A DNA stretch of 35,640 nucleotides from an uncultured Ignavibacteriota bacterium (GTDB taxonomy: Bacteria; Bacteroidota; Ignavibacteria; Palsa-1295), in the NCBI GenBank assembly GCA_903900335.1, contig CAIUMP010000057.1, positions 1-35,640 on the forward strand. The letters are read 5' to 3'. Shown here one piece after another: positions 13,050-18,305 of this stretch. A model generated the notes under the pieces. That model was given only the letters and a program-made list of their open reading frames with translations, was not told the origin of the DNA and did no database searches. Position 1 is the stretch's first letter, and every line of letters starts with the position of its first letter. The translations under genes were made by a program, and so were the position numbers.

Positions 13050-14861
13050 TCATCGTTCGAGAATTATCGGAATATGCTGCACGCTTCCATTCATCCTCAC
13101 CACACACTCATACATCCCCGTCGACAGGCCGCGCGCATCCCAGGTGAAGGAGTGCTCACCCACAGAAAGCTCACCGGAAAAGAGGCGAGCGACTTCGGTG
13201 CCGAGGAGATTGCGGATGGTGATTTGTGCCACAGCACTCTCGCTGGAGGAGAGTTTTAGCGTGGTTGTCGAGGAGAGGGGATTGGGTTGGATGCTATTGA
13301 TCTGAAACGGCGAACCAGTTGCCATGTAATGCAGGAGCAGCGAATCCCCGCAGCCATCGAAATCAATCTCAACTGAATCGGCACCGTCTGCGGAGAGGGC
13401 TTGGCAATCGCAGTTAAGGCGCTTGCCGAAGAGGTGCGCGTAATCGAGATAGATTTTGGCAGAGGGAGATGCGAGATACGTATTGAACGTAAGCTGCAAA
13501 ATAGGATTTGGAAGCTCCGTGTTCGAATCTCCCTTGATGGTAAGTTCGAGAACCCCTCCACGCACACTCGAATCTGTAATAACCCATGAAGGCGGCAGCT
13601 TCACACCCTGCAACCCCAGCGCCGAATCAAACCGAATGACGATATGCCCGGAGTCGATGCCGAGTTGGGATTGATCGGCGGTCAGGTTTAGCGTTACAGC
13701 GGTGCCCGCTTTAATGATCGTTCGCTTAGTGCTGTCGGGGAATGCGAAGCCCGTGCGGAAGTATTGCATCGAATCTACGTCGAGGGACCAGAGTGTCGAA
13801 CGAGTAGTTGAGTCAACTGAGAAAATGTAAACCTGATTATTCTTTACATAAAAGCGCTGATCAGGCAAGATAAGATCGGGTTGACCACATAGGTATTTCC
13901 ATGAAACGCCTTGATCGATAGAAAGATAGCATCCGGAAGGGAGCATCACATAGAGGCTATCTAATGTGCCGCGAATACACCCGCTCGAAGTGTAGCCATC
14001 CTCCCCATTTTTGAGACGATATTGAGGAGGAAACGAATAAATGACTCTCCAAGTGTCTCCGGCGTCGTCCGTTCGTATGATTGTTCCCCAAACGGTGTTC
14101 GCGAAGTATGTCTTAGTTCCTGGAATAGCGAGCGGCTGGTAACTGGTGCTGTCGTGACCAATCGAATTCCATGAATGACCACCATCTGTCGTTCTAAACC
14201 AAGGATAGTCTTGGAAGTAATCATACCATGCTAACAACCCAGTATCATCATCGGCAAATGCGAATCCGCCAGAGACTTCGCCCCCGACATTAACACCAGA
14301 CGAAACCCACGTAGAGCCTTCATCCCAGGAAACAGGGTTCCAACCTCCGTAACCATTGTAATCAAGACCGCCAAACGTAGAAAGGAACAGCCCACCTGAT
14401 TTTTTGTCATAGTAGATTCCGTAAGAATCGACACCACTTCCCACACAGAACTTCCACGTTTCTCCTCCGTCGGTTGTCTTATAGCATCCATCTCCGCATA
14501 TCCAACCAGTGAGGCTGTCTTTAAAGGTAAAATCGCGAACAACACTCCCCGAGTTGGGGGGGAATACGATTCGTTTCCAACTTAAACCGCCGTCGGTAGT
14601 CTTTCTCAAACCACTAACGAGTGTGTCGTCAACGATCTTTGCATCCGAGACGAACCCTACTCGTGGAGGACCGGGATGATCGATGAAATAGATTACGAAA
14701 ATATCAGCGTCGATTTTTGTAAGTAATTTTTTCCATTGTGCTTCAGCGTTATGGGTAAGTATGGCCAGAAGAGATAATGACAATAGCACGCGACTGACCA
14801 AGCCCGCAAACGCGGGCCTGGTCTCACATGCTTCAGAATAGATTAATGTAGTCTTCCGCAT
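13050..14861 (-). CDS. T9SS type A sorted Asp-box protein with cohesin-like domain, 603 aa
   Basis: ATG 14861 is preferred to GTG 14897. It overlaps the preceding IGGG-repeat gene by 19 bp, which suggests co-transcription. The signal peptide is unusual: a long n-region (residues 1-24) precedes the hydrophobic core LLSLSLLAIL and the site NAEAQ. The n-region is encoded over a perfect palindrome at 14802-14817. Residues about 30-350 hold at least six Asp-box-like motifs (TTDGGLSW, TTDGGETW, TTDGGHSW, TDDAGDTW, SIDQGVSW). About 380-500 looks like a cohesin-type beta-sandwich (AGTAVTLNL, FDSALGLQGVKLP). The C-terminus is a type A sorting domain (QPNPLSSTTTLKL, NLLGTEVARLFSGELSVGE). It is probably a surface protein; its function is unknown. 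Confidence 0.82.
   Translation of the reverse strand: MRKTTLIYSEACETRPAFAGLVSRVLLSLSLLAILTHNAEAQWKKLLTKIDADIFVIYFIDHPGPPRVGFVSDAKIVDDTLVSGLRKTTDGGLSWKRIVFPPNSGSVVRDFTFKDSLTGWICGDGCYKTTDGGETWKFCVGSGVDSYGIYYDKKSGGLFLSTFGGLDYNGYGGWNPVSWDEGSTWVSSGVNVGGEVSGGFAFADDDTGLLAWYDYFQDYPWFRTTDGGHSWNSIGHDSTSYQPLAIPGTKTYFANTVWGTIIRTDDAGDTWRVIYSFPPQYRLKNGEDGYTSSGCIRGTLDSLYVMLPSGCYLSIDQGVSWKYLCGQPDLILPDQRFYVKNNQVYIFSVDSTTRSTLWSLDVDSMQYFRTGFAFPDSTKRTIIKAGTAVTLNLTADQSQLGIDSGHIVIRFDSALGLQGVKLPPSWVITDSSVRGGVLELTIKGDSNTELPNPILQLTFNTYLASPSAKIYLDYAHLFGKRLNCDCQALSADGADSVEIDFDGCGDSLLLHYMATGSPFQINSIQPNPLSSTTTLKLSSSESAVAQITIRNLLGTEVARLFSGELSVGEHSFTWDARGLSTGMYECVVRMNGSVQHIPIILER
13095..13211 (-). repeat. T9SS sorting-domain DNA cassette, copy 3
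   Basis: Gap-free alignment to 6821-6937 (about 85% identity) and 10731-10847. The three copies share the same phase in three different genes. Confidence 0.7.
14802..14817. repeat. Palindrome inside the signal-peptide coding region
   Basis: GCCCGC (14802-14807) and GCGGGC (14812-14817) form a perfect 6-bp stem with loop AAAC, inside the coding frame of the 603-aa T9SS protein. It encodes part of ETRPAFAGLVS, an odd segment for a signal peptide n-region. This is consistent with a small palindromic element captured in the gene. Confidence 0.45.
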
Positions 14862-17128
14862 ATCTTGAAATAGAAACCATGATCCCAAAGGGTACACGGA
14901 CTACCGGTAAGATCACCGTATGTTCTCACAATGAACCAGTTGGTTATTGGGAGTACCATTAATCCATTCCAGGGTGCCGGTAGAGTTGGATTCAGTCCCG
15001 TGACAGTAACACTCCCACAGCTAAGACCTTGAAAGGCGGTCGTATCGTTCAAATTCGCATCCTCTTCTCTCCGGGTGACTGTTATAGAGGCATTCTTCAG
15101 TGTGTCAAAACCAGTGATTGGAGCTTTCAGAGTCAAGCAAACGATATAGACACCGACGTGCGGATGGAATATTTTTTGAACACCCACGTCTGCGGTCGCA
15201 TTGTATCCGATTGTGCTAAACAGGGATCCTGTCCCAGCAGGTATGTCTCCCCATGCTGTGATCGTGTTATCCTTGTAGGTCGAACCATAGAAGGGGGTAA
15301 TTTGGGGGCTTGTCGATGTGTTGTCGTTCTCTCCATATACCGTCATGTACCCCTTGTTCGCGAACGTCACTGCGTTGGAGCGGTGCAGGTCGTCCGTGCC
15401 ATTGCCAAAGATGCCCAGCGGATCGTCAGGATGCACTGGGCCGACCGCCATTGACGAACCCATCGGAACATTGTATCTTCCGGCGACGAACTGTGCGTAG
15501 CTCTGTGCATTCAACCCAATCCCACCGGGAATAGCGGAGTATTCGCCATTTGTGTCAACGCGGTTTTGCATCCCTCCTGCAATTGTGCTGTGTTCGACGT
15601 AAACAGTATTTAATTGCCCGCCTCCGACGACAGAACACCAACCGCTCCCAGCAATAGTGTTTAGAGACCCCCCGCCTATCGTCCCGTGCTGCCCATCTTC
15701 AAGAATTCTATTCCCCTCCCCTCCCGCAATGGTACAATAATACTCCTCAATGTCATTGCTTTTTCCTCCTCCTATGAAAGAGTTGTCTCCTTCGAACCTA
15801 ATCAAGTTTAGTGTGCCTCCTACGATTGCGGATTGGCTTGTGCTGTCTATGGCGTTAGAGAGACCTCCACCGATAACGCTGTGCTCCTGCCCAGACATCG
15901 TGAGGATGTGATTTAACTCACCTCCCGTAATGGTTCCGTATGGAGAATTAAGAGTATTTGAGGTACCACCTACGATAGCACTGAACGGTGCCACAATCGA
16001 GTTGCCTAATCCACCTCCAAGGAAGCTCCATTTCCCTCCTCCAATGTAATTATCCGAACCTCCAACCAAAACAGCAGTGTCCGAATTGTAATCAATAAGA
16101 TTATGTGATCCTCCGCCAAGGAATCCCGCGTGTGTATGGGCTGCGTTCGAAAAGCCACCTCCTACCGTGGTATAATTGCCATGCGAGGTATTCCCATGAC
16201 CGCCACCCAAAAACTGGTAGTATTGGCCATCGAGTATATTATTACTATCTCCCCCAACTATCGAGGAGTAGAGCGTTGAAGTACCGATGGTGTTGTTCCA
16301 CCCACCACCTATAAACCCTCGCGAGGACTCAACAGTGTTATAGCCACCGCCGACAACCGAACTCGACCAAGCGTTGTATGTGAGGTGGTTCGTCCATCCT
16401 CCTCCAATAACACCAAAGCTCGGATTGTCTTCAACATTGGCATACCCCCCTCCGATAAAATTATGATCGGCTCCGGTTGCGTTGATGTAATTACTATCTC
16501 CTCCGGAGATCGCGCAAAAAGGTCCTTGTACGAAGTTTCTCCAGCCTCCACTGATCGAAGAATAGTCCGCTCCTTCCACAATGGTGTTCACCTTCCCTCC
16601 TGCTATTACTGCGTAGCTCGCTGATGCGATCTTGTTGAATTGCCCACCAGCGATAACAGATTCACCGACTCCGGTTGTATCCCACCCTGTGTTCACTCCT
16701 TCGATCCGGTTCGAATCACCGCCTCCGATGAATGTTCCCAATTGTTCGGAGAAGTTATTCTTACCTCCAACAATAGATTCGAGGACATTGGTCAATTGAT
16801 TGTGTCTTCCGCCTGCAATAACACTTACTCCCTCGGTAACCAGATTTTCTAGACCGCCGCCTATGAAGCTCCCCGTATCGTCACCGTCAAGCGTTAGTGG
16901 GGACGCATCTGCGATTTGGTTGTCGCGCCCACCCGCGATCGCAGACAGCCGATTGGAAATGAAGTTATGCACTCCTCCGACGATACTTGACCCTCGGGCG
17001 CTGTCATATATCCAATTTCCTCCTCCGCCACCTATAAAACAAAGCGGTGCGTAGCTAAGAATGGTGTTATTCTTGCCGCCTACAATTGCGGAGCTGTCAG
17101 AACTGATAGTGTGCCCACTGCCTCCCAC
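14843..17128 (-). CDS. IGGG-N repeat surface protein, C-terminal part (downstream of in-frame stop)
   Basis: The product is 761 aa from GTG 17128. The frame is open back to TAA 17228-17230 and continues the same frame as the 258-aa ORF upstream, so the repeats begin about 35 codons earlier than this start. It holds about 32 repeats of 15-25 residues with consensus (F/A/S)I(G/V/A)GGxxNxI, such as FIGGGDSNRI, SIVGGDSNNI and TIAGGEGNRI. The last is SAIPGGIGLNA followed by FVAGRYNVPMGSS, the pattern of beta-helical or YadA-head-like stalks. The C-terminal about 190 residues (DPLGIFGNG onward) form a different, probably beta-rich domain. There is no T9SS sorting domain. Whether this part is translated is doubtful: no signal peptide and no ribosome binding site are apparent at 17128. 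Confidence 0.6.
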   Translation of the reverse strand: MGGSGHTISSDSSAIVGGKNNTILSYAPLCFIGGGGGNWIYDSARGSSIVGGVHNFISNRLSAIAGGRDNQIADASPLTLDGDDTGSFIGGGLENLVTEGVSVIAGGRHNQLTNVLESIVGGKNNFSEQLGTFIGGGDSNRIEGVNTGWDTTGVGESVIAGGQFNKIASASYAVIAGGKVNTIVEGADYSSISGGWRNFVQGPFCAISGGDSNYINATGADHNFIGGGYANVEDNPSFGVIGGGWTNHLTYNAWSSSVVGGGYNTVESSRGFIGGGWNNTIGTSTLYSSIVGGDSNNILDGQYYQFLGGGHGNTSHGNYTTVGGGFSNAAHTHAGFLGGGSHNLIDYNSDTAVLVGGSDNYIGGGKWSFLGGGLGNSIVAPFSAIVGGTSNTLNSPYGTITGGELNHILTMSGQEHSVIGGGLSNAIDSTSQSAIVGGTLNLIRFEGDNSFIGGGKSNDIEEYYCTIAGGEGNRILEDGQHGTIGGGSLNTIAGSGWCSVVGGGQLNTVYVEHSTIAGGMQNRVDTNGEYSAIPGGIGLNAQSYAQFVAGRYNVPMGSSMAVGPVHPDDPLGIFGNGTDDLHRSNAVTFANKGYMTVYGENDNTSTSPQITPFYGSTYKDNTITAWGDIPAGTGSLFSTIGYNATADVGVQKIFHPHVGVYIVCLTLKAPITGFDTLKNASITVTRREEDANLNDTTAFQGLSCGSVTVTGLNPTLPAPWNGLMVLPITNWFIVRTYGDLTGSPCTLWDHGFYFKICGRLH

Positions 17129-17227
17129 AATTGCGCTAAAATTGCTATTTACATAATTTCTGTGATCTCCGGTGGCAGTGTCATTTGCGAAGCCACCACC
17201 TGCAATTACGGAGCCTTGTCCGCTGAT

Positions 17228-17230
17228 TTA
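17228..17230 (-). pseudogene. In-frame TAA interrupting the IGGG-repeat gene (14843-18004)
   Basis: The codon between TTG-N and ISGQGSV is TAA. Translation through it gives TGN-stop-ISGQGSVIAGGGFANDTAT, in which the repeat pattern starts 6 codons later in the same frame. A single base change (for example from AAA, CAA or GAA) would make one 1053-aa protein. Downstream repeats show no decay, so the lesion is recent, a sequencing error, or a recoded or phase-varying stop. Confidence 0.65.
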
Positions 17231-18004
17231 ATTTCCCGTTGTTGGGCTAGATTCGCCCGAGCCGTATCCCGAAACCAAATTCGGGGAGGTCTTCGTACCC
17301 AGTTCCACATGATAGACTCTCTTGCGTGGTTCGTGTGAGCCACTGTCCTCAAGGTGGATTTCAAATGCAGAAGTGTTATCCGTTGTCCCGATGAAATGAC
17401 TCGGAACAGAAGTACCTGTGTTTCCCGTCTCGCCCCAATAATCCGGTGCTGAACTAACCGGCGTGCTCCGAAGGGGCAGGTCGGCTGTTATCGCTTGTGT
17501 CAGGGAGTCGTAATGGAATTGAATTCCTCCTTCCGACGAGAGGTTGAGTGCTCCGCCCTTCGTTGAAACTCGTTGTCCATCAAGATTTACTTGTGAGACA
17601 TAATCCGTAGCCAGCTTACTCGCTGTGATCGAATGATCCGCGACATTCATCGCAAACGGAACTGTGCCGAGCCTTGCGAGCGGTCTCGTTTCAGCCGTGC
17701 CGTTTATGCGTGTACCAACCCATACAGGCTCGTCCATGTCGGTGGCCTTCGGTAGTGCCTGGTTAGAGCCAAGTGCTATATTGAAGATACCTTTTCGCAC
17801 TTCTGTCGCATACGTATCCTGCCAGAGCGGGTGCGCCCCGTTCTCGTCAGAATAGAATGTAACCGTGATAGAATAAGTGCCGCTATCCACAGGCATTCCC
17901 GCTTCGTTGGCGAGCGTGCCTTGGTAACTTATCGTCTGGGATTGCGCTCGAACGCCGTATGCGGAGCAGCAGAGAATTGTAAGGAACAATAGGACATGTT
18001 TCAT
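17228..18004 (-). CDS. IGGG-N repeat surface protein, N-terminal part (258 aa)
   Basis: ATG 18004 begins a signal peptide (VLLFLTILCCSAYGVRAQ). It is followed by the domain that heads many secreted stalk or tail-fibre-like proteins: ISYQGTLANEAGMPVDSGTY, LWQDTYATEVRKGIFNIALG, then ARLGTVPFAMNVADHSI. Residues about 150-258 are a linker ending SSPTTGN before TAA 17228-17230. The frame then runs on without a shift into the IGGG repeats, so this is very likely the front of a single 1054-codon gene. If the stop is real, the cell secretes a stalkless 258-aa head. The divergent XRE regulator gene starts 89 bp away and is a possible local regulator. Confidence 0.7.
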   Translation of the reverse strand: MKHVLLFLTILCCSAYGVRAQSQTISYQGTLANEAGMPVDSGTYSITVTFYSDENGAHPLWQDTYATEVRKGIFNIALGSNQALPKATDMDEPVWVGTRINGTAETRPLARLGTVPFAMNVADHSITASKLATDYVSQVNLDGQRVSTKGGALNLSSEGGIQFHYDSLTQAITADLPLRSTPVSSAPDYWGETGNTGTSVPSHFIGTTDNTSAFEIHLEDSGSHEPRKRVYHVELGTKTSPNLVSGYGSGESSPTTGN

Positions 18005-18092: not shown

Positions 18093-18305
18093 GTGAATTA
18101 CAAAAAGACCGTCGGTGAAAATATCAGAGCACTACGCATTGCTAAGGGCTGGACTCAAGAAAAACTTGCTGTTCGCTGTGAGCTTAGCTTTGAATATGTG
18201 AATCGCCTCGAAAATGGTCACGTCAATGTAAGTGTCGGCACCCTCCTCAAAATCTCCAAAGCTCTTCGTTCCGCTGTCATCGACCTTCTAAAAGGTCTCG
18301 ATTGA
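18093..18305 (+). CDS. Small XRE-family HTH transcriptional regulator
   Basis: The product is 70 aa from GTG 18093 and is almost entirely one Cro/C1-type helix-turn-helix domain. GENIRALRIAKGWTQEKLA covers helices 1-2, LSFEYVNRLENGHVNVSVG the recognition helix and turn, and TLLKISKALR the following helix. There is no sensor or peptidase domain. It is divergent from the IGGG-repeat gene across an 88-base gap, the usual arrangement for a small autoregulator or local regulator. AT-rich sequence with TATAGT (18075-18080) lies just upstream and may be a -10 element giving a very short leader. Targets are unknown. Confidence 0.85.
   Translation: MNYKKTVGENIRALRIAKGWTQEKLAVRCELSFEYVNRLENGHVNVSVGTLLKISKALRSAVIDLLKGLD

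Follow-up and report, generated by a model that had tools for sequence, protein, structure and literature searches.

A recent nonsense allele probably interrupts one member of a multi-copy, mosaic surface-fibre family in an uncultured Ignavibacteriota bacterium

Introduction

When a long, repetitive gene is divided by one stop codon, has the gene been lost, has it been switched off, or is the stop a wrong base? The question arises at a locus of an uncultured Ignavibacteriota bacterium (GCA_903900335.1, contig CAIUMP010000057.1), where the original prediction, made from the letters alone, was that a single in-frame TAA splits an otherwise intact 1054-codon stalk protein. Four options were offered for it: recent pseudogenisation, an assembly error, suppression, or a reversible switch for a surface antigen. 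The window (i.e., the whole stretch of DNA that was analysed, 35,640 nucleotides) is an entire contig (C57) of a 4.0 Mb genome assembled in 62 contigs, and the fibre gene lies well within it. Here we examine the interrupted frame, its paralogues in the source genome and its counterparts in related genomes, and weigh what best explains the stop.

Results

A single stop within one open frame

Minus-strand translation bore out the central claim. Positions 14843-18004 form one frame in which 258 sense codons, a TAA at 17228-17230, 794 further sense codons and a terminal TAA at 14843-14845 follow one another. Over the 794 codons past the internal TAA the fibre frame has 0 stops, whereas the strand's other two frames have 39 and 42, and it is therefore not open by chance. 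Two details of the prediction fared less well. The 761-aa open reading frame does share the fibre frame, as had been stated, but its GTG (17128) is internal to a repeat and is no plausible gene start, the open frame beginning directly past the TAA; nor does the repeat array begin right after the stop, which instead falls inside the first repeat unit (“..GN*ISGQGSVIAGGG”). A separate downstream gene was considered and rejected: its GTG start would lie within a repeat and its product would be without a signal peptide. The features of the locus, with the basis for each, are as follows.

17231..18004, minus strand: 5' part of the fibre gene, 258 codons, ATG start (translation, domain matches, AlphaFold model)
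17228..17230, minus strand: single in-frame TAA within the first repeat unit (translation; sense codons in the paralogues' column)
15533..17227, minus strand: repeat array of GG-x(1-3)-N-x-I units, YadA/UspA1-head-like, open frame (translation; UspA1 3pr7 match)
14846..15532, minus strand: conserved C-terminal domain of the fibre, 229 aa, undecayed (leave-one-out profile; alignment)
14843..14845, minus strand: normal terminal TAA of the fibre frame (translation)
13050..14861, minus strand: partner gene, intact, with BNR-like repeats and a T9SS-type C-terminal sorting domain (likely ATG at 14861, overlapping the fibre 3' end)

The mechanical open reading frame of the partner gene starts at GTG 14897; the likely ATG is at 14861. 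On the other side of the fibre gene, a small Xre/HTH_3 regulator gene (18093-18305, plus strand) is divergent from it, 88 bases from its start, and may regulate it.

Domain architecture of the fibre

The fibre consists, in order, of a signal peptide, a conserved beta domain, a short module, a YadA/UspA1-type head-repeat array and a conserved C-terminal domain. Specifically, residues 1-22 are the signal peptide, residues ~23-112 the beta domain, and residues 188-258 a “GTTDN” module together with the start of the first repeat unit. The AlphaFold monomer model of the 258-residue part has a mean pLDDT above 70 in blocks 21-110, with strands between residues 25 and 112 and a helix at 2-14. Residues 13-84 match NF053851 (NCBIfam Bdello_MAT_N) at E 4e-7, though the score of 30 bits is half the cut-off of 60; of 13 aligned family members, 10 reach E 0.01 or better with this model. 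When PDB sequences were searched with an N-domain profile, none matched.

Past the TAA, the array has a match in the UspA1 head structure 3pr7 (E 1.7e-5), and 34 GGx(1-3)N motifs are spread across the whole fibre frame. A Pfam search of the 794-aa part gave nothing at E 0.01, and no YadA outer-membrane anchor was recognised in it, so identity as a type Vc autotransporter is unsupported; no secretion signal beyond the signal peptide was recognised in the fibre. The last 229 residues form a domain common to 18 aligned genes, 17 of which gave no Pfam match there and one a weak Ig match, and its model (low confidence, mean pLDDT 63) had no Foldseek match at E 0.001.

A many-membered family, with a partner gene behind its array-type fibres

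The N-part of the fibre matches 34 places in the source genome. In the regions fetched around them, tblastn delimited 24 family frames, of which three running off contig ends were dropped to leave 21; regions L065, L067 and L068 had no hit at the tblastn threshold and stand outside this count. Only one of the 21 frames with their end in view is split, namely the window's, and 794 open codons follow its stop (longest elsewhere, 74). Four members, here called array-type (the window fibre and those on contigs C58, C21 and C17), are each followed by a partner gene of ~600 codons, the four partners sharing 35-62% mutual identity. The closest paralogues are intact—C58 with 1324 codons and C21 with 1194, at 64 and 61% identity over the 258-aa part—and both carry sense codons in the alignment column of the TAA.

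Fibre–partner pairs are not confined to this genome: 18 are in view in 7 of the 13 family genomes (four own pairs, 13 from the 24 relative loci fetched around partner matches, and G012:C123). With the broken partner of G006:C242 set aside, 17 pairs were examined, and in 12 of them a partner-frame ATG lies 4-22 bases before the fibre gene end (in the window, at 14861). This overlap suggests that fibre and partner are translationally coupled, provided that the overlapping ATGs are the true starts.

No decay past the stop

The claim that no decay is seen held for the 794 codons past the TAA. Besides the lack of further stops, the C-terminal domain scored 186.3 bits against a leave-one-out profile, sixth of 18 in a range of 119-208. 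From nonsense changes only, with transitions weighted twice, the lesion can have been followed by no more than about 0.04 substitutions per site of unconstrained divergence (95%). In most blocks past the stop, comparison with the paralogues shows saturated synonymous sites, and dN/dS is therefore uninformative on selection there. The locus thus shows one mark of a pseudogene, an in-frame stop where intact homologues have sense codons, while relaxed constraint downstream, the other mark looked for, was not seen; if this is a pseudogene, it is therefore a recent one. More broadly, the absence of a second stop and the undecayed C-terminal domain mean that the lesion is recent or that the consensus is in error, and the two have the same appearance in one assembly. 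As a search of 60 related genomes gave no orthologue (the best-scoring match is 46% identical), sister strains cannot settle the base.

Lesions in the fibre–partner pairs of relatives

Breaks of a similar kind occur elsewhere in the family. In G012:C123 (L118, reverse-complement 941-955), the fibre frame shifts at a G7 run that lies just within the array and is a candidate slippage site; the rest of the array and the tip are undecayed, and the C-terminal part past the break scores 198.6 bits, among the best. In G006:C263 (L169), where a contig end cuts off part of the fibre, the frame changes within the array, with a C-terminal domain score of 162.3 bits. Altogether, the fibre is broken in two of the 13 pairs in which it is seen whole (the window's and that of G012, with 11 of 13 open throughout) and in one of the five cut by contig ends. 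The partner gene can also be hit: the fibre of G006:C242 (L170) is intact and its partner has one in-frame TAA followed by 577 open codons. Apparent partner lesions in G005:C58 and G001:C15 were discarded, the TAA lying just upstream of the start codon. In G002:C1 (L175) and G003:C22 (L177), 3' fibre remnants made up of the C-terminal domain only stand directly before an intact partner.

A survey of family frames in relatives yielded 27 frames, 11 with their end in view and two of these broken, a sample biased towards broken copies because it was picked as best hits or short frames. G012 also has an N-domain gene of a different type, with two in-frame stops. As a control, 124 DEAD-helicase matches from these 13 genomes were checked and none has an internal stop, a comparison that counts stops only, in a strongly selected family, and is no proof of excess lesions in fibres.

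Mosaicism among paralogues

Similarity among the array-type fibres depends on where it is measured. The window's beta domain is 84% identical to that of C58 and 83% to that of C21, and only 40% to that of C17; in mid-array, C17 has 70% identity to C58 and 73% to C21, while for the window the figure is only 48-53% against any of the three. In genome G001, exact tracts of 30 to 92 bases at the 5' end are common to four of the five paralogues; the fifth has none. Since N-domain and array identities disagree and G001 shares exact tracts, the paralogues are, judged by their sequences, exchanging or separately inheriting parts, as happens in mosaic fibre families. In the window gene itself, exact matches to the own-genome family regions that were fetched extend to at most 47 bases, the longest lying far from the stop, and hence no donor for a conversion at the TAA is seen.

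Discussion

A recent nonsense allele as the best explanation

We consider it probable that the window carries a recent nonsense allele of one of four array-type fibre paralogues in a fast-turnover family. Among the four options first offered, recent pseudogenisation fits best, because the paralogues are intact, the sequence past the stop is undecayed and relatives have similar lesions; suppression found no support and nothing at this stop points to a switch. Under the favoured explanation, a single nonsense substitution, recent relative to protein divergence, would end translation of one array-type fibre. The cell may then export a 258-residue stub made up of the signal peptide, the anchor-like beta domain and the short module, without the repeat stalk and C-terminal tip, so that this fibre would be lost or reduced while the paralogous fibres remain. 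Translation of the partner gene may fall as well, its likely start overlapping the fibre end and ribosomes stopping 2.4 kb upstream. A family of this kind would turn over by birth and death, and the loss of one fibre member would therefore be tolerated.

A wrong base

The chief rival is an error of sequencing, assembly or strain mixture, in which the TAA reflects a wrong consensus base or the base of a minority strain. We judge this unlikely, though with an appreciable chance of being right. A single-base event without decay in a draft assembly of 62 contigs is what such an error would produce, and repetitive paralogues hinder assembly: in G005, two contigs (L166 and L167, on C58 and C88) start with a shared fibre segment (95% identity across 365 bases), an indication that shared fibre segments break assemblies. 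Against an error, internal stops are rare in these genomes, both in the helicase control and in the source genome's own family, where the window's frame alone is split. The fibre is about as similar to C58 before the TAA (57% identity) as past it (55%), giving no sign of a chimeric join, and the longest exact own-genome family match lies well away from the stop.

A reversible state

Reversible or population-level ON/OFF variation would make the TAA an OFF state, restored by reversion or by recombination with a paralogue; we hold this to be rather improbable. For the family as a whole the idea is not absurd, because the fibre of G012 breaks on a G7 run, and fibres of the same kind of pair in G012 and G006 are broken within the array and undecayed past the break. 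Paralogues may also exchange sequence, given that the window's N-domain is much closer to C58 and C21 than the rest of the gene is and that exact tracts occur in G001. A precedent is the badA island of Bartonella henselae, where badA is frameshifted in two of eight strains, with pseudogenes flanking it (PMC8859334). As there, a single lesion here would silence a repetitive fibre gene with homologous copies elsewhere; whereas population data exist for badA, the window case is one assembly, with a nonsense codon rather than a frameshift. The site itself speaks against a switch, however. No hypermutable tract that would toggle the frame, as at a phase-variable locus, lies at the TAA: homopolymers in the fibre gene reach at most six bases, and the stop coincides with none of the three runs listed. 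Nor does a long identical donor tract span it. A literature search on premature stops together with phase variation found no paper. In the genome at large, the search for a diversity-generating retroelement gave a single reverse-transcriptase match, on contig C3.

More speculatively, fibre–partner pairs might constitute an undescribed contingency system, in which single revertible lesions at or within the array switch fibres off lineage by lineage and exchange between paralogues behind the shared N-domain recombines the tips. The window copy would then be a genuine OFF allele. This proposal, which draws on the kinds of lesion found (nonsense in the window, G7 slippage in G012, a frame change in G006), seems to us doubtful at best.

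A short form, or readthrough

Very improbable, in our estimation, is that the 258-residue product functions as a short form of its own. Signal peptide and the entire conserved beta domain are retained in it, and short family members of about 260-350 aa do exist; yet those end in C-terminal sequences of their own whereas the window product ends inside a repeat unit, and a long-established short form would have allowed the downstream sequence to decay.

Programmed or suppressed readthrough yielding some full-length fibre can be dismissed with still greater assurance, for although the frame stays open over 794 codons without decay, covariance-model search with ARAGORN typing of the source genome's 46 tRNA genes found no TTA anticodon (i.e., no ochre suppressor), the paralogues have no stop here, of the 13 fibres seen whole 11 have no interruption, and just one of 21 own-genome frames is split. 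A change of genetic code was rejected because TAA terminates the fibre frame and other family genes normally.

Relation to known fibres and significance

The closest described counterparts are the mosaic adhesive trimer (MAT) fibres of Bdellovibrio bacteriovorus, which have a signal peptide, a conserved beta-rich N-domain, a long repetitive mosaic fibre and many paralogues (PMC10769870). The window fibre likewise has a signal peptide followed by a beta-rich N-domain, mosaic repeats and many paralogues per genome. Of the ~130-aa beta-rich domain expected directly after the signal peptide of a MAT fibre, it has strands modelled at 25-112 and the NF053851 match, at half the curated cut-off; no S74 domain was found. 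In place of the beta-prisms described for MAT fibres it has a YadA-like array, and a T9SS/BNR partner gene follows. The array has YadA-like head repeats, with the UspA1 head match, as do trimeric autotransporter adhesins; the C-terminal YadA anchor of type Vc adhesins was not recognised in its 794-aa part, and of 18 C-terminal domains of the family one alone gave a weak Ig match. By architecture, it is a MAT-like mosaic fibre with a YadA-like stalk, a candidate rather than an established member of either family.

Taken alone, the window locus is one recently interrupted gene. Its modest wider interest is that it reveals a multi-copy mosaic surface-fibre family outside Bdellovibrio, the array-type members of which usually stand with a T9SS/BNR partner. 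Several independent single lesions suggest fast gain and loss of surface structures in this family and, if the lesions were reversible, they would represent an unrecognised means of cell-surface variation in environmental bacteria. The same N-domain also heads many other mosaic fibres of the source genome, e.g., L058 (3124 codons), L049 (3425 codons), L053 and L061; some of the genome's other N-domain fibres carry collagen-like GATG repeats and phage-tail-like tips, part of a large repertoire that bears no family name.
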